From a virus, in IMG/VR virus record IMGVR_UViG_3300000928_000566, positions 1 through 23,003 of that record: a DNA stretch of 23,003 nucleotides. One strand, written 5' to 3'. A model generated the notes under the pieces. It was given only the letters and a program-made list of their open reading frames with translations. It had not been told where the DNA came from and did no database searches. Positions 9,970 through 23,003 of the stretch are shown in pieces; position 1 is the first letter of the stretch; every line of letters begins with the position of its first letter. Both the position numbers and the translations under genes were made by a program.

Positions 9970-11640
9970 TTAAAATTCAAAGACAACTTTGATATCTTCG
10001 ATCTGGTCGATTGCTCTAGCCACTGGCTGTCTGTTTTCTGTATAAAGTACTTTGCCAGAACCAGTCAAAATATCAAATGGTTCTTCATCAGCAGTTCCAA
10101 AATCTGGGTGTTTTGGTCCTCTGTAAGATTCTTCCGTTGCCGGTGGATTATCAGACGTTGCCTCTTGAGGATCTGCCACAATTGCGATTTGTCTGAACTG
10201 TGCCTCATCACCAGAAACAGGGAATATAACTTTAGTTTCAGAATTTCCTAAACTATTATCTCTGGTTGATTGTTCGTCATACTCCAATCGCATGGAAACC
10301 ATAACATAATATCCAGCTAATTCTTCTATTGCATTGTACCCATGACCATAATCTGGAGAAATAATCGGTTTTACTTTACATGCATTCACATTTTGATTTC
10401 CATTACCATCCACTGCAGGCACATTAGATGTATCAATCTCGGCAGAATCTACTGCACTCCAGTTTGCACCTTTAGCAGTAATTACCATACTAGAAATTTT
10501 ATCAATAGTAACAATACCATATGCTGTAAACCCTGCACCATTTCCAGCAACTGAAACGCCAGGCGCGATGATGAGGTTTCTATCAGCACCACCAGTAAAG
10601 GTGCCGTTGACTGTCACTGCAGCTGTGGTTCCTGTGACGTTCCACTGTGTGATTTCAAACTGTTCATTATTTCCCAAATCGATTATAAAATATTTTGTAT
10701 AATCAAGAGATGTATTAGATATATTAGGAATAGATAAAGTATTTCCTGTTAATGCTATTCCAGTTTTATTAATATTCGGGTGATATCCAGACCCCCCAGA
10801 TACAGCACCACCCACTTCATTTGGTTCGATTTTGATCCACTCAATTTCGCCATCTATGCCGGCAGCATTTTGTTGAATTTGCCACTGCACATATTCTGCA
10901 CTAGAAACATCCACTGGCTCATATAAAATCGTATCAACTGGAATATAATCTTTTGTTAAAAACTTTAATGCATCCGACAGTTCAATTGAATACATGTACT
11001 TCCAAACATACCCATCAGAAGTTTCTTGAAATTCAGTAGTAGATGTTGAAGTAGGTTTGACAGTAGATGCGACCGTTTGCACACCTACAGCATCATCTAC
11101 ATATGCTCTGTTATTAATACATTTATACACATTATATTGATTTCCAGAATCTGTTACAACATAATTGTTTGGAATGATTTCTTCTGGGGAATCATGTTCG
11201 AACATAGTATAAACTCTACCAGAAGTCCAATTAATTCTTGGAATTGCAAGAGTCATATCTGCATAGTTTACTTTTTTCATAGCGATAGTATCTGCGTTCA
11301 CACTATAACCATAGCCAATAGAATCTTGTGGAGTTGGTGGATTTGCATCATTAGTCCATGGAGTATGTTTTGCAACTGACATGTACAGATTATTGTACAC
11401 CGCCAGTCCTTGATGTATCCATGTAACTGTGCCATCAGTCAATGAAGATGGCGTTGGGCCGGTTCCAGTTGCCGCTGATGTGCCTGTAGCCACTGCGACA
11501 AAGAGATTTCTATTGTTTACAACCGAATCGCCAGCACTATATGATTGGTTAGTATTCCAAACTGGGGCCGAACGATTTATTGATTGCAAAAATTCTTGAG
11601 CGTTAAAAATTCTCAATTTATTTGTGATAATTGCTGCCAT
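9970..11640 (-). CDS. 8: Baseplate wedge protein gp8 with inserted carbohydrate-binding-like module
   Basis: 556 residues, against 334 in T4. Conserved gp8 landmarks are present in order: AKHTPW (90-95), PTPQDSIG (102-109), AIPRINW (132-138), DGYVWKYMYSIEL (209-221), and at the C-terminus FRQIAIVADPQEA (482-494) and VLYTENRQPVARAIDQ (531-546). The extra length comes from two insertions. Residues 25-79 (W28 to W74, with YSAGDSVV and LTDGTVTW) look like a chitin-binding-type beta module. Residues about 270-470 form a Gly/Ser/Thr-rich beta segment. gp8 dimers bridge the inner wedge (gp6/gp7) and the outer baseplate, so surface insertions there could reach outward. It is the first gene after the predicted late promoter. 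21 bases separate it from the next gene. Confidence 0.93.
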   Translation of the reverse strand: MAAIITNKLRIFNAQEFLQSINRSAPVWNTNQSYSAGDSVVNNRNLFVAVATGTSAATGTGPTPSSLTDGTVTWIHQGLAVYNNLYMSVAKHTPWTNDANPPTPQDSIGYGYSVNADTIAMKKVNYADMTLAIPRINWTSGRVYTMFEHDSPEEIIPNNYVVTDSGNQYNVYKCINNRAYVDDAVGVQTVASTVKPTSTSTTEFQETSDGYVWKYMYSIELSDALKFLTKDYIPVDTILYEPVDVSSAEYVQWQIQQNAAGIDGEIEWIKIEPNEVGGAVSGGSGYHPNINKTGIALTGNTLSIPNISNTSLDYTKYFIIDLGNNEQFEITQWNVTGTTAAVTVNGTFTGGADRNLIIAPGVSVAGNGAGFTAYGIVTIDKISSMVITAKGANWSAVDSAEIDTSNVPAVDGNGNQNVNACKVKPIISPDYGHGYNAIEELAGYYVMVSMRLEYDEQSTRDNSLGNSETKVIFPVSGDEAQFRQIAIVADPQEATSDNPPATEESYRGPKHPDFGTADEEPFDILTGSGKVLYTENRQPVARAIDQIEDIKVVFEF

Positions 11641-11687: not shown

Positions 11688-14600
11688 TTAATCGACTAAA
11701 GTAGAACTTATTATAATATTTAATTCCTCTATACTAGAAGGAGATGAATTGTATGTTACAATATTGGATTCTGATGCAAAATTAGATTTATCATGTAGTC
11801 CGCCAGGAACTGCATACTTCCCAAAAGTATTTAAATATAGTTCATTTTCGTCAAAATCTATTCTGTCAACATTATAATCCAACATCTGCACCTTTTCATT
11901 AAACTTTGCCCTTTCAACTGATAAGTTAGTTGGGCCCATTCTCTTTCTTGTACTAGAATTTGGTTCTTCTTCACTCATGACCAAATAAACAGGATTTAAA
12001 TCTACATGTGCATCTAATACTGCTCTGTATTTTCTATCCGATTTTTCAGTTATTTCTGCTATTCTAGTATTCGTCCATTTATGATCTGTTCCATCCGTAT
12101 TCGCAATCCATTCATCATCACCATCTACTTCTACTGGCAAGAAATACCACATATTATATTGTGTTGGTCTTCTTGCAACATGTGTCAAAGTAGTACCTTG
12201 TATCAATTTTCTTCTATTTAGCCACGGAGATGTATACATTTCTGCCTGTGGACTGAACAAATATGGAGAAAGGTTTTGCCAAGGAAAAGATGCAGTAAAG
12301 TAAAACTTAAATCTTTCTAGAGAACGGTAAGTTGTGTGTAGAGTTGGAACATCTCCTTCTTTATTATTGTTATATCTTCCAGAAATATTTATGATCATTT
12401 TTTCATCTCTTGGATTGGCACCATCTGCTGTGGAACCTATCCAATGATTTGGTTGTCTATCAACATTTCCTCTAAATATATTATCCCATCTGAACTCCAC
12501 TCTATTTTCTGGAGATAGATTTGGCATAGTCTTATAATGACGCAAGTATTTAACGCTAAGAATTGCATATCTATCTTCAGCATCATCATCAAATTCTACA
12601 GAAGTAACTTCATATTTACCCCAAGGCCGAGTATTCAACCATTCATTACTTGTAATATTTGCATCTGAAGTATCATATACAGTAAAGTTATTTCCAATGA
12701 TTTCAGATTCATAATAATTTGCATTATCAGTGCCGAAAGCATCTTTATAATTCAATGCAATTTTTTCCACTAAATTCCAATCTAGGGCATCTGCATTTGA
12801 GCTATCTAAAAGTGCATATCTACCCGAACCAGTATCAACAGATGCTGCCCCAATAGTATCATCGGATATTTCGCCAGTACCAACACCGGCATATAATCCA
12901 TCAATCATACTATCGATTGTTGGTTGTCTATTGTCATATGTAACTCGTATTCCATGCGAATTTAAATTGTTTGTATCTTGAACATCAGAGTGTCCATAAG
13001 TCCATCTTCCCAAACCATCCATATTTTTGACTTTAAGATTAATATTTTTAATAATCTCATAAATCAACTGACTCCATGCAGAGTTTGTAGTTCTTCTCAG
13101 GCCTGCCGTAGTGGTTATAGAATATTCACCAAACATCATCATACCAGCTGGGTGTAGAACCTTTTTAACTATTTTTCTCCACTCATCAATATATCTTCCA
13201 ACTTTTATAACATAAGAATAGTCTTGCCATAGATAACTATCCGTAATTCTATTATTATCGGATAAGAACCCTTGATCGTTTATATATGCACCCTCTCTTA
13301 CACAAAGAGGGCCTGTCTTGACTGTTACTTGTGCATCTCCATTACCTATGCTTGAAAGGTCTATTGTGGGTGCTGTGTCATATCCTACTCCAAAGCCATC
13401 ATATTCATCTTGGATATCACTTTCAAATATCTTTACCTTACTAATTCCACCAATAGAACTTCCCATACCTTTGAAAAATGCTCCATCGCCTTGTGAGGAA
13501 TAACTTAGAGTTTTATTCCTCACATAACCATATGGTTGTCTAATATAATTAGCACCTTTGCTTATAAGTCTTGTTCCAGAAACTCCAGCAGGAGGCCGCG
13601 CAGAATATTTAACTCTTAACGAATGGCCATCTGGTAAGTTGTATGTAGAATATATTCCAGTAGCATCAGCATGACGCAGTGAAATTTTATTACCAGCAGC
13701 TGCGTTTGTGTTGTCGTATATAATATATTCAACATCATCTTCAATATTAGAATACGAAGAAACTTTTACTATATCACCTTCAGATAGTCCACTATTAAAA
13801 ATTATCTGCTCACCGTCTGTTGCAGTAAAGTTTGTATTTGATACATCATTAACTAATATATTGACTTGGAGTGATGCATCATATTCAAGGGCGAATATGG
13901 TCTGGCCCTGATCTGCTGTAAAAGTATTTTGCTGTTGTGTAGAGTTTCTTATAGTTCTATAACTAGGAACAGGATTTACATGAATAGGATTTAATCCGTT
14001 GCCACTTATTGGATTTTCTGTACCCCTATCTTCAACTAAGATATCTCCATCTACATTTATTGGTTGTTCTTCATATCTCTGCCCTGAGGTAAACCTCATA
14101 CTACCAAAGAAACCTAACGTATAATCGAACATAATATAATCTGCACTCACCTCTTGTCTTGCACCAACATAAAAGTTAGTTCCAGATGAGTATTGCAACA
14201 TATTAACACTTGAAATTGTATCTTCTTTTTTGCCATCTACATATAGTGTAGTGCTGGCATTTGAGAAATGAATAGCAATATGATGCCATTTTCCAAATTC
14301 CAATTGAGCAGAAGTTAATTGATTGCCACCACCATCTTCCAATAATAATGTTCCATCTGGTCTTTGCCAAAGGATTGATTTTTGTTCGCCAGTATTTTCA
14401 ACATTAAAAGAGAATAAAGTTCCGCCAGGAGATGAAAGATCAGTAACCGATATAGATTTTCTAAAATACCAAAAGTCTAATGTCAATTCTCCAGAAGTTA
14501 ATTTTTCGTCCAGTACTGCATCAATATCATTAGTTCTCGTATAGCCAAAATTAGTGAATAGTGCGTTATCGCCTACTTTAGATAATCCGGCTACAAAATT

Positions 14601-17546
14601 ATCTTTAATCCACTGATATCCCAATCTTTGTCCAGAAATAGTTAGAGTTTGACCTACTTCATATCCAGAACCATCAAAACTAGGAGAAACTGTGGCAGAA
14701 AAGTTTCCAGAATTTATCGATACATCGAATTTTGCCCCACGACCCTTACCATTCATTACATTCAAATTTAAATAACTATCTGAATTTGCAGCAGTTCCAT
14801 TCAACACAGACAGCTTTCGGACTTGGCCAGAAACAAAAGAACCATCAACGTTTCCGTCTACAGTTTCATCAATCCGTATCGTTAAATCATTAGTACCGTC
14901 GGCACCGCCTAGTTCCGAGCCCAAAACAGTTATGATAGAACCAACTACATAATTGCTTCCCCTATCTTTGCCAAACGGATCAACTGTTTCATAAGAATTA
15001 CCAATCTTGTTTACAGAAAATCTCAAATCAGAACCACCAGATACATCTACAGAATATGTCGGTGAAAAGTAAGAATTTACAGAATCCGGCATCGCCTTAG
15101 CTGGATCCATCAATTGGAATGCAGATATCTGTCCACCTTGTGGGCGGCCGATCGCGGCGAAATCATTAATTCTACCACTATCGTCAACTTCTGTCACCTG
15201 TATCACCAAATCATGTTCTGGAGTACTTCCGCCAATCAAAGTGCCTGGAATTGTAAAAGTATCACCCACTACATATCCTGTAGTTGGGGATGGATTATTA
15301 TTTGAATCTGCATCACTCAAAAGAAGAGAAATAAGTTTTGGATATGTCGCCTGTGTTGTGTCTACATCCCAAACAGCACCAGTGCCATTTTCAGATGTGG
15401 TAGTATATTGTGTATCCTCAATGTCTGTAACAACAACTCCACCAGTTACTGCAGTGATTTTTACAAACACATCGTGAGTAATATCTTCGCCCTGTGGGGC
15501 AAAATTGCTACCCAATATTTTAACAACATCATTGACTGAATACAATTGGGAATTGTCTGTAGATGAAAGACTAATATTGCTAATGATATTATTTGTAATT
15601 ACAACATCAAAATTAGCACCAAATCCCAATCCATTGTTCAACACTGCATCTTGTCTCAGTAGATCTACTGTTGCAGGGAATATGGAAGTAGTATTAGCTG
15701 TGGTATTTACTACTGAAACTCCAGTAATCGCCCCATCCGCATCTACTGATGTAACTGTTAAATCTAAATCTTGTCTAACTCTTGTTTCTGTTGGATCCCC
15801 CTGATTTATATTGACAATATTTCCCAAAGGAAATTCTACAGGCATTAGTGAAGATTTGTGTCTATATGAAAGTGCATTTGCCTTTTTATCTAAAAAATAA
15901 CCCTGATATTGATTATCATTTCTGAATAAGATCTGATCGGTTCCAAGAAATGCTTCATAATCATATAGGATGAAAACATCGTCATATTTTGTGTCTATAT
16001 TTTCTATAGAAACTACAGTGTTTGTTGAATTTGCTGGATATATATCTCCGCTCAAAGAAATATCAAAAACAGTCATAGGATATTCTAGAGACTCAGGGTT
16101 TTGATTAAATATAACTTCATAATTTGTTGTAGTTGAACTTATATCAGCAACTTCGCCAAGACCACCAGAACCCAATGTACCAGTATCTGCAAATTCAATC
16201 TGTTCTCCAGTAATATATCCTTCACCAGCACCAACAATTTCAATTTCTTCTATGTGGCCAGGCGTAGTGTGTTCTATAAGAGCAGAGAACCCTGTGCCAG
16301 AACCGGCAGACGAAATATATGGGGTCAGTCCACGATTTCTTGGATAGTCTGTGCCTGGGCTTGTTATTTCAAATCCAACAACACATTCATATAATTCTTC
16401 TTCATAGCTTGTATTATTTGTTTGAAAAATTTCAATTTTTTCTTTACTAGAGAATTCTCCAATAATATTAGTTATAAAATATTCTCTAACTAGATTATTG
16501 CCCAATTTAAAATCTTTATAGTATTCTACAATACCTTCTGCTTTGGAAGTTTTTCCAACGACTTTATATGGAGTTTCTATTTTTGGATCTGTAGGAGCAC
16601 TTCTAGTATATGGAATTGCTCTAAGACTCTTATTAGAATCCCAAACATTATTGCTCAATTTAAATATATTTGTTTTGGGGTAGTAAATATCAATATCTTC
16701 GTTAAATATAGCACGAAATAAAAACTTAAAAGATGGTTCTGTACCTTTTGATTGGTAGAACTCTTTCATAAACTTTAAAAAATTCTTTTGATTCGTATAG
16801 CTCGTTTTTTTAACTGAGGCATCACTAACAATTTTCTTCACAGCATCTTCGGTGTCTGCAGTAGCAGTTGTTGCCAACAAAGACTGGATATAAAATCTAA
16901 CTTTTATTAAGTCATTACTAGTTGGTTTTTGTGGGTCGCCATTACTGTCTATGAATTTTATTTGATTATTATCTAAAATATAATCTACATTTTCTACTAA
17001 TTCTACATAACTACCTAATGCCCCACCAGACTGCAGTTCTGGATCTGTAAGATGTTCAACGATTGCATCTAAAGTAGTTCCCGTACCTCTAGCAGACCCA
17101 GCCGCATTAGAAAAAACTCTAATATCGACAACAGAACTATCATCATTTGGATTGCCAAGATAATATATAGGACTGAAATAATTTAATTTAAATGTATGGT
17201 TATTTCCATCTGCAAAAAAGTGTTGATCAGAAGTAGTTTCAGTTAAAGATTGAGTATCTGCTTCTAAATTTTCATCTGAAAACTGTAAACCTTTTATTCT
17301 TGTAATATTTGGAAAACTATCGGCAAGTTCACTTTTAAACATCGAAACGAATAAATCAAGAGTTTGATCTAGGTCAGTATAATCTACGATTTTATTAGTA
17401 ACTTGTGATACATTACTCTCTTTAGCCATCCACTCATAATAAAGTTCTAAAAACTTAACAAACTTACCATATTCTTCATCACTAGAAATATAGAAAGGAA
17501 GTTGGTCTCTAATGTAGGCTGATATGTTTTTAATATTTTCTTGCAT
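11688..17546 (-). CDS. Giant baseplate wedge protein in the gp7 position, with beta repeats and a LamG-type lectin domain
   Basis: 1952 residues, nearly twice T4 gp7 (1032). The N-terminus (IRDQLPFYISSDEEYGKFVK, then FLELYYEWM) and residues about 253-289 (FMKEFYQSKGTEPSFKFLFR) have the pattern of the large structural proteins found between gp6 and gp8 in marine T4-like phages. Several repeats carry a Y-x-V-G-D/x-x-x-x-x-x-G-x-x-x-G pattern, seen near residues 672, 757, 866 and 963 (for example GYVVGDTFTIPGTLIGG). Residues about 990-1160 look like a LamG/concanavalin-type domain (FGKWHHIAIHFSN, then TTLYVDGKKED). After it comes a conserved block near 1415-1470 (INDQGFLSDNNRITDSYLWQ and LHPAGMMMFGEY). 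Its role as wedge initiator is inferred from position, since T4 gp7 similarity is not obvious by eye. The ribosome binding site is weak and the start lies 2 bases after gp6, so translation probably depends on coupling. Confidence 0.8.
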   Translation of the reverse strand: MQENIKNISAYIRDQLPFYISSDEEYGKFVKFLELYYEWMAKESNVSQVTNKIVDYTDLDQTLDLFVSMFKSELADSFPNITRIKGLQFSDENLEADTQSLTETTSDQHFFADGNNHTFKLNYFSPIYYLGNPNDDSSVVDIRVFSNAAGSARGTGTTLDAIVEHLTDPELQSGGALGSYVELVENVDYILDNNQIKFIDSNGDPQKPTSNDLIKVRFYIQSLLATTATADTEDAVKKIVSDASVKKTSYTNQKNFLKFMKEFYQSKGTEPSFKFLFRAIFNEDIDIYYPKTNIFKLSNNVWDSNKSLRAIPYTRSAPTDPKIETPYKVVGKTSKAEGIVEYYKDFKLGNNLVREYFITNIIGEFSSKEKIEIFQTNNTSYEEELYECVVGFEITSPGTDYPRNRGLTPYISSAGSGTGFSALIEHTTPGHIEEIEIVGAGEGYITGEQIEFADTGTLGSGGLGEVADISSTTTNYEVIFNQNPESLEYPMTVFDISLSGDIYPANSTNTVVSIENIDTKYDDVFILYDYEAFLGTDQILFRNDNQYQGYFLDKKANALSYRHKSSLMPVEFPLGNIVNINQGDPTETRVRQDLDLTVTSVDADGAITGVSVVNTTANTTSIFPATVDLLRQDAVLNNGLGFGANFDVVITNNIISNISLSSTDNSQLYSVNDVVKILGSNFAPQGEDITHDVFVKITAVTGGVVVTDIEDTQYTTTSENGTGAVWDVDTTQATYPKLISLLLSDADSNNNPSPTTGYVVGDTFTIPGTLIGGSTPEHDLVIQVTEVDDSGRINDFAAIGRPQGGQISAFQLMDPAKAMPDSVNSYFSPTYSVDVSGGSDLRFSVNKIGNSYETVDPFGKDRGSNYVVGSIITVLGSELGGADGTNDLTIRIDETVDGNVDGSFVSGQVRKLSVLNGTAANSDSYLNLNVMNGKGRGAKFDVSINSGNFSATVSPSFDGSGYEVGQTLTISGQRLGYQWIKDNFVAGLSKVGDNALFTNFGYTRTNDIDAVLDEKLTSGELTLDFWYFRKSISVTDLSSPGGTLFSFNVENTGEQKSILWQRPDGTLLLEDGGGNQLTSAQLEFGKWHHIAIHFSNASTTLYVDGKKEDTISSVNMLQYSSGTNFYVGARQEVSADYIMFDYTLGFFGSMRFTSGQRYEEQPINVDGDILVEDRGTENPISGNGLNPIHVNPVPSYRTIRNSTQQQNTFTADQGQTIFALEYDASLQVNILVNDVSNTNFTATDGEQIIFNSGLSEGDIVKVSSYSNIEDDVEYIIYDNTNAAAGNKISLRHADATGIYSTYNLPDGHSLRVKYSARPPAGVSGTRLISKGANYIRQPYGYVRNKTLSYSSQGDGAFFKGMGSSIGGISKVKIFESDIQDEYDGFGVGYDTAPTIDLSSIGNGDAQVTVKTGPLCVREGAYINDQGFLSDNNRITDSYLWQDYSYVIKVGRYIDEWRKIVKKVLHPAGMMMFGEYSITTTAGLRRTTNSAWSQLIYEIIKNINLKVKNMDGLGRWTYGHSDVQDTNNLNSHGIRVTYDNRQPTIDSMIDGLYAGVGTGEISDDTIGAASVDTGSGRYALLDSSNADALDWNLVEKIALNYKDAFGTDNANYYESEIIGNNFTVYDTSDANITSNEWLNTRPWGKYEVTSVEFDDDAEDRYAILSVKYLRHYKTMPNLSPENRVEFRWDNIFRGNVDRQPNHWIGSTADGANPRDEKMIINISGRYNNNKEGDVPTLHTTYRSLERFKFYFTASFPWQNLSPYLFSPQAEMYTSPWLNRRKLIQGTTLTHVARRPTQYNMWYFLPVEVDGDDEWIANTDGTDHKWTNTRIAEITEKSDRKYRAVLDAHVDLNPVYLVMSEEEPNSSTRKRMGPTNLSVERAKFNEKVQMLDYNVDRIDFDENELYLNTFGKYAVPGGLHDKSNFASESNIVTYNSSPSSIEELNIIISSTLVD

Positions 17547-17548
17547 TT

Positions 17549-19588
17549 TTAGTAACCACTACCACTGCTAGAGCTTGATCCGCCTGAACCAGCAGATGTT
17601 TGAGAACTATCTCCATATACTCTAGTTATTGAACCACTACTTCCGCTAGATATAGAAGCAGAGTTTGTATTGTAAGAAGTCGAAACATTTCTAGAAACCA
17701 CGACCCTCTGCGTTGAGATATCATAGTTTTCATTAAATTCGTCCGTATCTTCAATAAGATTAACTTCCAACTCATCCATATCAATATAAATTATTTGATT
17801 TCTAACAGGAAAAATATCATTTGATGCTGGAGTACATGCAATTCCTATCATATCACCACCCAATACTCCTGTAACATTTAAGTCTGGAATATCAACCAGA
17901 CCTGTTGTATAATTTACAGTACCAATAGGATTTAATGTATAAATTCTTGTTCCAAAATTATTGATATTATACATTCTGATGCTTCCGAGCCCATTATCGT
18001 CTATATAAAATGGAAGTTCGTTTCCAGAAATATAAAATGCGTTTGAGTATATGGAATTTGGAGAAATATTATTACTAAAATTAAAAGAATATTTGCTTGA
18101 TGTATTTACTGTTGCGGATTGTTCATTTATCATTATAATTGTAGTTAAGTTATTGGTAATACTTTCATCTGTTTGGTCAATCTTAGCAAGAAATTGAGAA
18201 TACCTAAAATAACTGTTAAAATCATTCAAGAATTTACTATTATAATCTATGATAGAATTTTTGACAGCAGCTGTCAGATCTGCAGTTTCTAATAAGGTAG
18301 ATTCGTTATCATATTTCACTTGAGTATTGATTTTTAATTTAATAAAATCTGGATCAACAATATCTGGAGTAAGTCCTAAAACAGAATAATTTTTAACTAA
18401 AGAATTCTTTACAGAAACTTTTTCTTGCTCAGACAAATATAATCCACTATTTGGTTTAATAGAAATAAATATTCTACCATATTGTGGAGGGTCATTATCT
18501 TCACCACCCCAAACATTCATTGAAGCTGTTTGTGGATAAATTTTTGGAATAATTGTCATATAATCTCTAGAAGTTACTGCACGATTTTGTCCTTCAAAAG
18601 TTCTTGGAGCATAAAATTTAATCGATTCTATACTCTCTTTATCAGAACCACCATAAGTTCTACCAATTATAGATAAATTGTTTGGGAAAACAGTAGGAGT
18701 TGCTGCCCGTATATTATCGGGAACATCTTTTCCCAACATTGTCATTTGGCCAGTAAGTCCATTTACTGCTGCGCCGGCAGAAGTAACATATCTAATAGTA
18801 AGTTCATTTCCAGATACCAAATTTTTTCCAAGAACTCCATCTCCAAACAAAACCTCATAATTTCCATCAGCAGATTCTTGTAAAAAATATCTAGTGGAAA
18901 CATCAGTCAATGCCATCGTATCGGTGTTTAATGTATACTCTTCTATGAAATCACTAAATTTATTTTCTTTAACAAAAACTTTCAACGTAGAAGTATCGAC
19001 ATTTGGGTTTGATATCAAAAATCTTTGATTTACATCAGAAGTGTCCACGATATAACTTTCAGTTACTAAACTACCTTGGATTACTTCAAGGTCAAATATT
19101 TCGTAAATATGTCTAAACTGGCCATTGCCAATATCAATTGGATCTTGTGAACGATTGACTACTCTCGAAACTGATGGTACAAATCTATAGTCAACTCCGT
19201 CAACTGATAACTTAAATACAAAATTACTATCAATTTTAATATTTGCAAACTTAGTATTTGATTTATCTCCAATTCTATTCTCGATCATAAAAACTGATGA
19301 TAATGTTGCCTTTGCAGATCTTGTAGAGGTTGGAGTATATCCAAGCAATTTTGCTTTGGATACCACGTTGTCTCTAATTCTGGCGGTGTCTAAAAACATT
19401 TCATTTGCCATCATGTTCAAATAGAATGAGTTATAATATGTGTTATATCCCAAGATATCAGTAAGAGTATCTAGTGCAGAACCTTCAAAGTTATAATCTC
19501 TAAAAGTTTCATCCGATTTCATATAGTCTTTTATAGAGGACTTTATAGCCTCAAAATCTAATTCAGATATATTAATGTTTTTTGCCAT
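17549..19588 (-). CDS. 6: Baseplate wedge protein gp6 (baseplate J-like)
   Basis: 679 residues, close to the 660 of T4 gp6. The N-terminal part has the typical gp6 pattern: DYNFEGSALDTLTDILGYNT, followed by YNSFYLNMMANEMFLDTAR and AKLLGYTP. The middle contains the J-like core signature near residues 335-360 (NRAVTSRDYMTIIPKIYP, then VWGGEDNDPPQYGRIFISIKP). gp6 dimers form the continuous inner ring of the baseplate and change shape when the sheath contracts. The last 35 or so residues are almost entirely Ser and Gly, a likely flexible tail not present in T4 gp6. The ATG directly follows the gp25 stop, and AAAGAG lies about 10 bases upstream. Only 2 bases separate its stop from the next start. 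The identification rests on clear family motifs and gene order. Confidence 0.95.
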   Translation of the reverse strand: MAKNINISELDFEAIKSSIKDYMKSDETFRDYNFEGSALDTLTDILGYNTYYNSFYLNMMANEMFLDTARIRDNVVSKAKLLGYTPTSTRSAKATLSSVFMIENRIGDKSNTKFANIKIDSNFVFKLSVDGVDYRFVPSVSRVVNRSQDPIDIGNGQFRHIYEIFDLEVIQGSLVTESYIVDTSDVNQRFLISNPNVDTSTLKVFVKENKFSDFIEEYTLNTDTMALTDVSTRYFLQESADGNYEVLFGDGVLGKNLVSGNELTIRYVTSAGAAVNGLTGQMTMLGKDVPDNIRAATPTVFPNNLSIIGRTYGGSDKESIESIKFYAPRTFEGQNRAVTSRDYMTIIPKIYPQTASMNVWGGEDNDPPQYGRIFISIKPNSGLYLSEQEKVSVKNSLVKNYSVLGLTPDIVDPDFIKLKINTQVKYDNESTLLETADLTAAVKNSIIDYNSKFLNDFNSYFRYSQFLAKIDQTDESITNNLTTIIMINEQSATVNTSSKYSFNFSNNISPNSIYSNAFYISGNELPFYIDDNGLGSIRMYNINNFGTRIYTLNPIGTVNYTTGLVDIPDLNVTGVLGGDMIGIACTPASNDIFPVRNQIIYIDMDELEVNLIEDTDEFNENYDISTQRVVVSRNVSTSYNTNSASISSGSSGSITRVYGDSSQTSAGSGGSSSSSGSGY

Positions 19589-20047
19589 CTATCTTACTCT
19601 TTTTACTTTTAAAGTATAGTCAAATACTTCTGTTGCCGGTGGTACTTTATATTTAATTTCAATATTCAACTGATTATTATCAGTTGCCCTAGTCACAGAA
19701 CCTTTTCCATATCTATTTTCCCCATCACCAACAAATTGAACGTCTGTCACTACAACTCTAGGCTCATATTCTGCTATAGTCAATCTTATAGTTTCTTTTA
19801 TATTTATTTCGTCTGGAATGGACATATATTCAATATCTGATATCAATTCAAAAAGATTTCCATACATATTACCACCAAAATTTTGAAAGAAAGGTTTTTC
19901 ACCTTTATTGGTAAGTAAAATATTCACAAGACTCTGTTCAATTGCAGGGAATTTATTTTGCTCGGGAATATCTTTTTTAATCTTTATATCTCCAGAAGAC
20001 ATTCTGGTAAATTTTAAATCAAAATCTTTATTAGTTACTAGTGTCAT
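19589..20047 (-). CDS. 25: Baseplate wedge / sheath-initiator protein gp25 (GPW/gp25 family)
   Basis: 152 residues, compared with 132 in T4. The family core is clear: the AIEQSLVNILLTNKGEKPF segment (residues 35-53), then FGGNMYGNLFE (57-67) and the conserved EPR at 95-97, followed by VVVTDVQF. gp25 proteins resemble lysozyme in fold but are structural. They join the inner wedge ring to the first sheath ring and help start sheath polymerisation. The gene sits between gp5 and gp6, the order usual in marine T4-like phages. Its TAG stop is followed immediately by the gp6 ATG with no spacer. The C-terminal extension after residue 105 (VGDGENRYGKG and on) is rich in basic residues and somewhat longer than in T4. 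Confidence 0.95.
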   Translation of the reverse strand: MTLVTNKDFDLKFTRMSSGDIKIKKDIPEQNKFPAIEQSLVNILLTNKGEKPFFQNFGGNMYGNLFELISDIEYMSIPDEINIKETIRLTIAEYEPRVVVTDVQFVGDGENRYGKGSVTRATDNNQLNIEIKYKVPPATEVFDYTLKVKRVR

Positions 20048-20050
20048 TTT

Positions 20051-20057
20051 TCTTCCT
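20051..20057 (-). promoter_or_regulatory. Ribosome binding site of the gp25 gene
   Basis: AGGAAGA on the minus strand lies 3 bases before the gp25 ATG and overlaps the TAG stop codon of the gp5 gene. Only 8 bases separate the two genes, so ribosomes ending gp5 translation would sit on this site. This supports the ATG at 20047 and suggests translational coupling. Confidence 0.6.
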
Positions 20058-22332
20058 ATGGATTTAAATCAATTTTCGGGGCTTTAATCGTAGTATTCCC
20101 ACCAGATTCGGTATCTAGAGTTTTTCCTATTTTTGCGTCCACTGCACCAGTAACATTAATATTGACATCTTTATCTACAACAATATTTAGGTTTCCTTTT
20201 ACATAAATATTATTATCACCAAAAACAATTTCATAATTGTCTTTTACTATCTTAGTGACCATGCTGCCATCTGGATGCATTTCTTGGAAAGTTCCCGATT
20301 TATGCATTACATTAATTCTTTCAGCCCCAGGCGTATCATCAAACTCTTGGACATGTCCAGACTCTGTAAATAATACTTTATTGTGGGGATATTTCGCCGC
20401 GTATGGATTTTCTGGTTCTTCGAATAGGTCAGTTGTGTCTCTAGTCTTTTCTTTTTGTTGTACTGAATATGGTTTATCCTCAGAGGCGACTCCAGACGCT
20501 CCAGAGCCCTTTGCGTTTGTGGTGTAACCATCTGTAGTGGTCGCAGCTGCTGCCTCTGCAGCATCCTTCTGTGCATTCACAGAAGACTCTTGAACACTAT
20601 CGGGTGCAATTTCCCACAACACCGTACCATCTGTCAAATTAGAAGTTCTGGGGCCGCCATCAGTTCCAGAAGTTCCTGCTTTTTTTGCAATATAAACTTT
20701 TTGTTCTATAAAAGTAGATTCTCCAGCACCTTTAAGAAGTCTATTGGCGTTTACTTCATGTCCAGCCATTTGATTATTTACTTTATCTCTGACTGTTCCA
20801 GCAGCACCACCATTATTTGCATCAGTTCTACCATAATACTTTTCACCAACACCGCCAGCGTTGATTGCAGAATAAACTTCCAATCTTCCCATGCCAGATC
20901 TAACACCAGCACCTTTGAGATATTTTACAACAGCACCATTAGGCCCAAGTTGGGAATCTAATGCAGTTTGTTCTGTTGAAAAATTTGCTCCATATTGTCT
21001 GGCTTGTGGTTCTCCAAATTGTATCAGTCCTCTATGCTGCCCCCATTGAGTAGTCGGGCCTTTCTTACGTGGATCGAAAGTACCACCTGTTTCATATGAT
21101 ATCACTGTTGCTAAATCTGTTGCAGATATACCCAGAGAAGCAGCAGAAGAAATAATACCAGTTTTCAATGTGAAGGGCGGCCCTCCAACTGAGTTTTGTC
21201 CTTCCGGCAACTTTGGGCCCTTAACCAAGTCTCCAACTGCATATGGTGTTTTTTCGTTCCAATCGCTAACATCTAATGTGGGTTTGGGTTGTGTTTTTGC
21301 GCCAGTTCCAGATGGAGTTGAATATGTAGAACCAGTAATTGGTGCTGAGTTACCAACAATTGCACTTTGATTTCCACTTGCATCTGGAACAATACCATTA
21401 CGCTTTAGACGAACTGTTCCACGCTCTCCACTTGCCATACTGAAATGCATCGTATCTTTTTTAGAGCTCCAGTCACCACCCCAACCCAGACCATATTTCT
21501 TAGCGATTGCAGATGTGTTTGATGGCATGTCAGTGATAAACCTATCACTATAAGGATTTTCCGCTGGATTAATATCTATTGACGCACCAGATGCATGATA
21601 ACTCCATTTACCATTTCCAGCTGCAGATTTTCTATAAACATAACCACCAATACTGTAGATAGTATATCCATTAGGATGATTTGGAGAAGGTGTCTTTTCT
21701 AATTCATTAATGAATCCTTGAAAATTGTCCTTGAATACTGTAGCAACCCATGCACTCTTACCATTCTTAGTTGTAACTTTAGATATACGTTTTCTGTTCT
21801 CTTCGTCTGAAGATGTTCCAGATTGATCTACATCTTCGCTGTAATGCTTACCATGTCCACCATCATCAGGCCCAGAAGAATCTACGGCAGTTCCAGAAGA
21901 ACCAGTATCTGGAGGAACGCCTTGAGCAAGTCTGTTAACATCTGTCTCATTAGTTGTAGATGCGCCAGGAACTCTTTCTTCAGTAGACGGATATGAACCA
22001 TCCTCTGCTCCTGTAGATGTTTCATTTGGTCGTCCATAGACTGTTCCCCAAATGATAGGGTCTTGGCCGGATTGTCCATCTCTAAAGAACCCCATAACCC
22101 ATGCGCCAGGCAATGCACCAGTTGGAGATTGTCCTACACCAGCAATCGCTGCAGATGTGATAGGCATTATCGGGGAGGCCCAAGGAAGTTTTGTTGTTGG
22201 TAGTAATGACTTGTCTTCATTATGAAATCCAAAGATTCTAACTCTAACTCTACCTAATGCTTCGGGGTCGTTTACATCTTCGACAATTCCTTGCCACCAA
22301 ACTAAACCTTCTTTACCACTGAAAAAATCCAT
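20056..22332 (-). CDS. 5: Baseplate hub / cell-puncturing protein gp5, with M15 peptidase and transglycosylase-like domains
   Basis: 758 residues. Residues about 1-110 are the gp5 OB-fold (VWWQGIVEDVNDPEALGRVR, later GQDPIIWGTVYGRP), which docks on gp27. Residues about 180-300 look like a D-Ala/L-Ala-D-Glu-type M15 zinc peptidase: H246-x6-D253 (HASGASID) and D293-x-x-H296 (DTMH) match the zinc ligands and catalytic acid of phage endolysins of this family. Residues about 385-530 resemble a lytic transglycosylase, with predicted catalytic E414 in ISYETGG and GLIQF near 434. This second domain is flanked by two halves of a chitin-binding-like module: PYAVGDLVKG near 362 and KVYIAKKAGTSGT near 544, the latter continuing to LTDGTVLW. 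Residues about 645-758 are the beta-helix needle (NIYVKGNLNIVVDKDVNINV). T4 gp5 (575 aa) has instead one T4-lysozyme-type domain. Enzyme activities are inferred from motifs. The start overlaps the upstream stop. Confidence 0.93.
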   Translation of the reverse strand: MDFFSGKEGLVWWQGIVEDVNDPEALGRVRVRIFGFHNEDKSLLPTTKLPWASPIMPITSAAIAGVGQSPTGALPGAWVMGFFRDGQSGQDPIIWGTVYGRPNETSTGAEDGSYPSTEERVPGASTTNETDVNRLAQGVPPDTGSSGTAVDSSGPDDGGHGKHYSEDVDQSGTSSDEENRKRISKVTTKNGKSAWVATVFKDNFQGFINELEKTPSPNHPNGYTIYSIGGYVYRKSAAGNGKWSYHASGASIDINPAENPYSDRFITDMPSNTSAIAKKYGLGWGGDWSSKKDTMHFSMASGERGTVRLKRNGIVPDASGNQSAIVGNSAPITGSTYSTPSGTGAKTQPKPTLDVSDWNEKTPYAVGDLVKGPKLPEGQNSVGGPPFTLKTGIISSAASLGISATDLATVISYETGGTFDPRKKGPTTQWGQHRGLIQFGEPQARQYGANFSTEQTALDSQLGPNGAVVKYLKGAGVRSGMGRLEVYSAINAGGVGEKYYGRTDANNGGAAGTVRDKVNNQMAGHEVNANRLLKGAGESTFIEQKVYIAKKAGTSGTDGGPRTSNLTDGTVLWEIAPDSVQESSVNAQKDAAEAAAATTTDGYTTNAKGSGASGVASEDKPYSVQQKEKTRDTTDLFEEPENPYAAKYPHNKVLFTESGHVQEFDDTPGAERINVMHKSGTFQEMHPDGSMVTKIVKDNYEIVFGDNNIYVKGNLNIVVDKDVNINVTGAVDAKIGKTLDTESGGNTTIKAPKIDLNP

Positions 22333-23003
22333 TATCTACCGCCTCCACCAAAGCCAACCGGCCCAACCAGCTGGGGAACTGGAGAAGGAAGAGTTTCGTT
22401 GAATGAATCTTTTACTAATTCTAAATCCATAATATATCTCCCACCCTGTATTCTATGTCTCAATGCGAATATTATATATTTCCCACTATAATATTCATCC
22501 TTTTTATCTGGATCAGTTGAACTAAACAAAGGAACATTTAATTCAAGACAATCGCCTGTAACCAAGTCACTATCTCCATACACTGTAATTGTACATTTAA
22601 TATTTTCCATCAATTGTTTATAAAACAGTCTACTTAAAAATATCTTCTCTTGGTTGTATAGCGGCTTGCCAGCAGTCAATTCGACTTCTGGAAGGAGATA
22701 ATAGGATTCTGGGCGATACTGTCTCCCCTGCCCGCTTACATCTTGGATAGGCCCATCATTCATATACTGATAGTCTGTAGAGTTATCCCAATATGAATGA
22801 GTGAAGGTTTTTGTATTTCTTGTAACCATATCTACCGTAGTGAGATTTCCAACATACATACCCTTTGCGATATTATCTAAAACAGAAAAGTTTGAGTTGA
22901 AAGAATATGTTATTACTTTTTTGTTTTCTGAATTTGGATCTAAAAAGGCATCAGGAGCTCCAGATCCAGTATTTTTTAAATCTCCCAAAAAGAACTCATT
23001 TCT
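22332..23003 (-). CDS. Baseplate hub protein, gp27-like, C-terminal part (5' end outside window)
   Basis: The frame stays open to the window edge, with residues RNEFF encoded before a TTG, so the true start lies beyond 23003 and 223 residues are visible. The TTG at 22988 is not a convincing start: it has no ribosome binding site and the frame continues upstream of it. The visible part is beta-rich and ends in a flexible Pro/Gly tail (PSPVPQLVGP, then a GGGG run). The segments LVTGDCLELNVPL and YYSGKYIIFALRHRIQGG have the pattern of the C-terminal domain of gp27/gpD-type hub proteins, which form the trimeric ring at the end of the tail tube. The stop codon overlaps the ATG of the gp5 gene by one base (TAATG), as expected for a gp27/gp5 complex made in matched amounts. 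The gp27 assignment rests mainly on gene order and these C-terminal motifs; another tail-hub paralogue is possible. Confidence 0.7.
   Translation of the reverse strand, partial: RNEFFLGDLKNTGSGAPDAFLDPNSENKKVITYSFNSNFSVLDNIAKGMYVGNLTTVDMVTRNTKTFTHSYWDNSTDYQYMNDGPIQDVSGQGRQYRPESYYLLPEVELTAGKPLYNQEKIFLSRLFYKQLMENIKCTITVYGDSDLVTGDCLELNVPLFSSTDPDKKDEYYSGKYIIFALRHRIQGGRYIMDLELVKDSFNETLPSPVPQLVGPVGFGGGGR

Follow-up and report, generated by a model that had tools for sequence, protein, structure and literature searches.

Two predicted wall-degrading domains in the gp5-type spike of an uncultured T4-like virus

The gp5 protein of phage T4 is the textbook cell-puncturing device and carries one lysozyme. 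We asked whether the gp5-type spike of an uncultured virus carries two wall-degrading domains of different kinds in a single chain. The DNA analysed, hereafter the window, is a stretch of 23,003 nucleotides (IMG/VR record IMGVR_UViG_3300000928_000566). A sequence-only reading of the window had described such a protein at 20056-22332, with an OB fold and a needle enclosing two enzyme-type domains. The open reading frame lies exactly there, on the minus strand, and encodes 758 aa; the residue numbers given for it (H246, D253, D293, H296 and E414) were exact, and GLIQF lies at 435-439. The scaffold and its gene neighbours are listed below.

20056..22332, minus strand: gp5-type baseplate hub/cell-puncturing spike, 758 aa, ATG start (open reading frame; Gp5_OB; PHROG 430; T4 gp5 in the PDB)
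21898..22332, minus strand: N-terminal OB-fold domain, residues 1-145 (PF06714, 70 bits over residues 40-145; aligned to T4 gp5 structures)
20059..20445, minus strand: predicted C-terminal needle of the trimeric beta-helix type, residues 630-758 (T4 gp5 370-459 in PDB 9f4a)
22332..22988, minus strand: gp27-like tail-hub protein, C-terminal part, truncated at the contig end (PHROG 350, E 2e-29, profile positions 238-430 of 436)
19589..20047, minus strand: gp25-like baseplate wedge protein (PF04965, 35 bits)
17549-19588: gp6 homologue
9970-11640: gp8-like wedge protein

The scaffold is that of the T4 gp5 family, as judged from Gp5_OB, the needle match and the adjoining gp27, gp25 and gp6 homologues. 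The Gp5_OB score of 70 bits compares with a Pfam cut-off of 25, PHROG 430 ('baseplate hub subunit and tail lysozyme') matched at E 7e-90, and solved T4 gp5 chains in the PDB matched both ends of the protein, with overall E-values of 1e-36 to 1e-39. These matches bear out the enclosing OB fold and needle. In the needle, which is short and divergent, residues 630-719 aligned to T4 gp5 370-459 in 9f4a (i-Evalue 1.3e-20); the Pfam trimer domain PF22178 reached 14 bits, under its cut-off, and Pfam found no Gp5_C repeats. Pfam also gave no Phage_lysozyme (GH24, T4-type) match in this gp5, and an NCBIfam search gave no match. The GH24 domain was present in 2 of 48 sampled gp5s; since most sampled gp5s are without it, this lysozyme does not define the wider gp5 family. 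The gene order in the window (gp27-like, gp5, gp25, gp6, a 1952-aa wedge protein, gp8 and a 2313-aa protein) is that of a T4-type baseplate block. No near-identical DNA was found among named phages, and the closest named phages by gp6 were Methylophilales phage Melnitz, Pelagibacter phage HTVC008M and cyanophages (33-37% identity). The 1952-aa wedge protein (11688-17546, minus strand) has a Laminin_G_3 (concanavalin-like) domain at residues 1013-1133 (38.8 bits), a possible sugar-binding insert.

The first of the two enclosed domains had been taken for an M15-type zinc peptidase.

21385..21777, minus strand: M15 zinc peptidase domain, residues 186-316 (PF13539, 58.3 bits; profile, AlphaFold, Foldseek)
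21574..21597, minus strand: predicted zinc ligands H246 and D253 (HASGASID; invariant in 27 homologues)
21445..21456, minus strand: predicted catalytic acid D293 and zinc ligand H296 (DTMH; invariant in 27 homologues; aligned to the D-x-x-H of Ply500, 2vo9)

Several lines of evidence agreed with this assignment. Peptidase_M15_4 (PF13539) scored 58.3 bits against a Pfam cut-off of 25, and S244, H246, D253, D293 and H296 were unchanged across 27 homologues. The homologue profile matched, in the PDB, Ply500 (2vo9, E 1e-7), 8q2g, LysB4, an M15C enzyme (that of phage RB49, according to the Foldseek listing) and ChiX, the entries matched including 6akv; most of them are labelled L-alanyl-D-glutamate peptidases. 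D293 aligned with the Asp of Ply500. The AlphaFold model of the domain (pLDDT 88, pTM 0.86) has a predicted Hedgehog/DD-peptidase fold; this is the structural check that the sequence-only reading had proposed. Foldseek placed Ply500 first (probability 1.00, E 3e-3, TM 0.45), followed by VanX, LysB4, the RB49 enzyme, VanXY and Hedgehog; no PDB match of this model fell under E 1e-3, and fold TM-scores in the analysis as a whole were modest (0.45-0.47). The domain thus combines the H-x6-D...[D/E]-x-x-H site with the fold that characterizes the M15 family. As proof of M15 membership the motif alone was rejected; it occurred in 5% of shuffled copies of the gp5 protein and by itself proves little.

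The bond to be cut is a separate matter. The sequence-only reading had the peptidase cutting peptide cross-links; the enzyme type stood, whereas the bond probably lies in the stem peptide next to the glycan. The domain most resembles, by profile, L-Ala-D-Glu endopeptidases with Asp as catalytic acid (Ply500, ChiX). The stem peptide, rather than the cross-link, is therefore the probable target, and the likeliest bond is L-Ala-D-Glu, beside the glycan. A D,D-carboxypeptidase or cross-link endopeptidase of the VanX/VanY kind would agree with the name of the Pfam family (D-alanyl-D-alanine carboxypeptidase) and with VanX and VanXY among the fold matches. We consider this unlikely, given that the top profile matches (Ply500, 8q2g, LysB4, RB49 M15C, ChiX) are mostly L-Ala-D-Glu peptidases and that an Asp precedes the last zinc ligand, as in Ply500; VanX and VanY have Glu, not Asp, at this acid position.

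The second enclosed domain had been described as transglycosylase-like, with a catalytic-type glutamate.

20725..21180, minus strand: GH23-type lytic-transglycosylase-like domain, residues 385-536, with E414, GLIQ at 435-438 and NAGG at 491-494 (homologue conservation; 9udh profile; AlphaFold; Foldseek)
21091..21093, minus strand: codon of E414, predicted catalytic glutamate (invariant in 54 homologues; aligned to the Glu of 9udh)

Profile and fold comparisons both recovered such a domain, in the stretch that separates the OB fold from the needle. Sixteen columns, including E414, Q438 and N491, were invariant in 54 homologues, and the profile matched PDB 9udh, a phage lytic transglycosylase, with the Glu aligned (E 1e-5). 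The AlphaFold model had pLDDT >90 in most blocks. Foldseek ranked 9udh first (probability 1.00, E 1e-3), then Slt, MltD and MltF; the cyanophage A4 pre-ejectosome, T7 core proteins and phiKZ gp144 also matched, and the viral-library fold matches included LT_GEWL and PRD1 transglycosylase proteins. The GH23-type lytic transglycosylase fold was thus obtained in the structure prediction that had been suggested for this domain as well. The domain combines the lysozyme-like fold of the Slt/Mlt group with an invariant Glu and the GLxQ and NAG motifs. In the window the domain matched no Pfam family, and the Pfam SLT model matched 0 of the 54 homologues. We accordingly class the domain by fold-level similarity only: the model resembles a GH23-type transglycosylase and stands outside the curated families. 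PHROG 21656, named 'peptidase', spans residues 396-514, inside this domain.

One Glu in a GH23 fold is compatible with a goose-type hydrolase and with a transglycosylase alike, and goose-type and invertebrate lysozymes were among the fold matches. The second domain could accordingly hydrolyse glycan as a goose-type lysozyme does, instead of being a lytic transglycosylase, with the rest of the protein read as before. This is doubtful: a phage lytic transglycosylase heads both the fold and the profile matches, and those ranked next are mostly Slt, MltF and MltD; in addition, GLIQ and NAGG resemble the motifs of family-1 transglycosylases. The transglycosylase remains our preferred reading of this domain.

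The sequence-only reading had overlooked that the transglycosylase-like domain appears to be nested within a further module.

21214..21273, minus strand: CBM5/12-like module, N-terminal half (DWNEKTPYAVGDLV), residues 354-373 (colinear with the intact gp8 module)
20608..20712, minus strand: CBM5/12-like module, C-terminal half, residues 541-575 (matches the intact gp8 module, E 4.6e-5)
11419..11559, minus strand: intact CBM5/12-like module near the N-terminus of the gp8-like wedge protein (PF02839, 17.6 bits; similarity to gp5)

We read residues 354-373 and 541-575 as the two halves of one CBM5/12-like module, by comparison with the intact module of the gp8-like protein. The stitched halves aligned to that module with only small gaps and a score of 95 (shuffle mean 24), which 0 of 2000 shuffles reached. 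Taken alone, the C-terminal half had a score that 0 of 2000 shuffles reached, and the N-terminal half was outscored by 3 of 2000. In the AlphaFold model, both halves were largely confident and contained strands. Most relatives gave the same result; in one of them (L127) the N-terminal half is weak. PF02839 scored the intact gp8 module at 17.6 bits, under its cut-off of 26.2, gave no match for the stitched gp5 halves, and was weak in 2 of the 54 homologues of the transglycosylase-like domain. Searching further loci for an intact form of the CBM-like module yielded that of the window gp8 only.

More than 12 distinct gp5s from IMG/VR, about 61-100% identical to that of the window, carry both domains in the same order. 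Their enzyme domains are 70-84% identical to those of the window, and in most relatives the linkers are mostly 31-48% identical. Between relatives, dN/dS was about 0.02-0.15 in both enzyme domains, near the OB-fold value. Both enzyme domains are under strong constraint within the clade. Chance or a pseudogene was rejected by the open frame, the many intact relatives and these dN/dS values. No second copy of either domain was found in four larger contigs of the clade.

All gp5s found with the window's M15 type also have the second domain, which is divergent in one of them (L178, 3446-5863). In that protein, the M15 domain is intact, the second domain is 41% identical with a dN/dS of about 0.3 and retains E414 and Q438, and the conserved Trp of the CBM-like module is absent. 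Since its second domain is divergent under relaxed constraint, this domain is not indispensable everywhere, and L178 offers a natural test of the need for a second enzyme. The same relative, together with the missing Pfam glycosidase match, would fit a spike that needs only its M15 peptidase, the transglycosylase-like domain and its CBM-like shell being mainly wall-binding or accessory, active or not. We regard this as highly improbable: none of the 54 homologues, L178 among them, departs from E414 or Q438, dN/dS is 0.02-0.15 outside L178, and the same domain stands alone, without a CBM-like module, in many other phages.

Given this evidence, our favoured reading, to which as a whole we give a probability of about 0.8, is that the window gp5 is the trimeric spike of an uncultured T4-like marine myovirus. 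In this spike, the single lysozyme of T4 would be replaced by an M15 endopeptidase, probably of L-Ala-D-Glu type, and a GH23-type transglycosylase set in a carbohydrate-binding-like module, both on flexible linkers and both attacking the wall at entry. The scaffold, the domains, their active-site residues and the constraint on them follow from sequence and structure prediction, as does the context. From family membership we infer the two activities, the trimeric copy number and the joint action at entry; release from inhibition would be a further step of this kind. T4 gp5 (PDB 1k28, 1pdl) shares the OB fold, an enzyme on linkers, the C-terminal needle and the hub/wedge gene neighbours. It differs in that it has one lysozyme, whereas the window gp5 has the M15 and GH23-type domains and no T4-type lysozyme. 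The T4 gp5 lysozyme is 43% identical to T4L and is a precedent for a spike-borne lysozyme working in the periplasm (PMC3004832). In T4, gp5-gp27 crosses the outer membrane at contraction, and the spike enzyme digests peptidoglycan locally once the needle leaves (PMC3004832). By analogy, the window spike would follow the same route, with outer-membrane passage and then local peptidoglycan digestion after departure of the needle. Tail contraction would carry three copies of each enzyme into the periplasm on the needle; the M15 domain would detach stem peptides and the transglycosylase would cut glycan strands, and the tail tube would pass through the wall where they had opened it locally. Both enzyme modules are candidate tools for cell-wall opening.

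Other gp5 proteins also combine two enzymes. In a DNA-motif sample of 80 gp5 loci, which gave 63 complete ORFs, the window's domain types were clearly present in none; a weak M15 score in one locus (L309) belonged to the other M15 type. A C-terminal M15_3-like domain was present in 15 of the 80 loci (9 of the 63 complete), and five of these 15 also have GH19 (L268, L321, L332, L340) or the T4-type lysozyme GH24 (L339), some of the GH19 matches lying just below the Pfam cut-off. These five share with the window a glycosidase and an M15 domain within one gp5; they differ in having GH24 or GH19 ahead of the needle and the M15_3-like domain behind it. The gp5 of the cultured Caulobacter phage Cr30 (KF301602, L382:1911-4016, 701 aa) has Phage_lysozyme2 at 130-269 (101.6 bits) and an M15-type peptidase at its C-terminus (551-696, with H621, D628 and WIH). 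It likewise joins a lysozyme and an M15-type peptidase in one gp5, and differs in that the peptidase follows the needle and that the M15 type and the lysozyme family are others. This protein is annotated as hub and tail lysozyme only.

The window was therefore not unique in its two-enzyme gp5, an idea rejected by Cr30 and by the uncultured gp5s with GH19 or GH24 plus M15. The M15 domain of the window and the M15_3-like type gave a short, low-probability profile match (hhalign probability 8), and because the two M15 types match only weakly, the pairings look independent. As far as the sequences indicate, the dual-enzyme gp5 is a recurrent design that arises with unrelated domains. In the literature, of which few subscription journals were covered, we found no statement of a dual-enzyme gp5 as a general pattern. 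The two-enzyme gp5 is real and well supported; the domain pairing and the nested arrangement are new, while the kind of protein is known.

Three further named systems come close. The gp5-like CBB_240 of phage CBB combines a Gp5 N-terminal domain with a lysozyme and possibly an M23 peptidase, all by prediction (PMC5259590); it differs in having M23 rather than M15, a C-terminal lysozyme and a weak E-value. The same paper calls this protein CBB_240 and CBB_250 in turn. In Anabaena cyanophage A-1(L), the endoglucanase and peptidase domains of the hub protein gp15 were assayed on cells (PMC10966104); gp15 shares several wall-active domains in a single hub protein, but carries them on a barrel-domain hub and not on an OB/needle spike. 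The gp5 pair of Melnitz (MZ577098) is among the nearest named relatives and has M15-type (VanY-like) matches in gp5-like proteins; it differs in that gp5 is split into two ORFs, each of which contains an M15-type domain, and that no glycosidase was found. At L253:2489-5532 of Melnitz, an OB protein with a VanY-like domain accompanies a separate needle protein with an M15_3-like C-terminus.

Both domain types of the window recur outside gp5. The second domain was found at 43-69% identity in internal virion, tape-measure and other proteins. For the M15 domain, matches at 42-48% came from Rhizobium phages, in tape-measure and lysin proteins, and from a protein of a Synechococcus phage; the domain also forms the C-terminal part of L079, a VgrG-like spike. 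Other phages thus have these domain types in ejected or entry proteins, of the tape-measure or internal virion kind, and both domains look like entry-protein modules moved between scaffolds. We lean slightly towards the view that a peptidase plus a glycosidase on gp5 is a general entry strategy. It would have at least four origins in T4-like phages from unrelated domains (M15_4 with GH23-like, GH24 with M15_3, GH19 with M15_3 and Phage_lysozyme2 with M15_3), the enzymes being exchanged with tape-measure and internal virion proteins and gp5 serving as a swappable platform matched to the host wall. According to a 2018 review, virion lysins of the endopeptidase type are almost confined to phages infecting Gram-positive bacteria (PMC6116005). 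The clade of two-enzyme spikes, found in many metagenomes, and the parallel cases with unrelated domains suggest that attack on both wall components is frequent among the spikes of phages whose hosts are probably Gram-negative.

The host hints diverge. Named-phage records with the second domain have alphaproteobacterial hosts in 10 of 12 cases, and its bacterial genome matches are alphaproteobacterial in 8 of 9. Relatives of both domains come mainly from alphaproteobacterial phages and genomes, whereas the phages closest by gp6 are those of Methylophilales, Pelagibacter and cyanobacteria (33-37%).

M15 and M15_3-like domains were also seen in other arrangements. Two large proteins (L059:880-3780 and L205:2858-5887) have two M15 domains each, with a glucosaminidase domain between them in L205. 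In PA5oct (L383:2967-3989) and Milchi (L384:2955-3959), a PAAR tip protein is fused to the M15_3-like peptidase also seen in the sampled gp5s, an arrangement that places the peptidase at the point of the spike.
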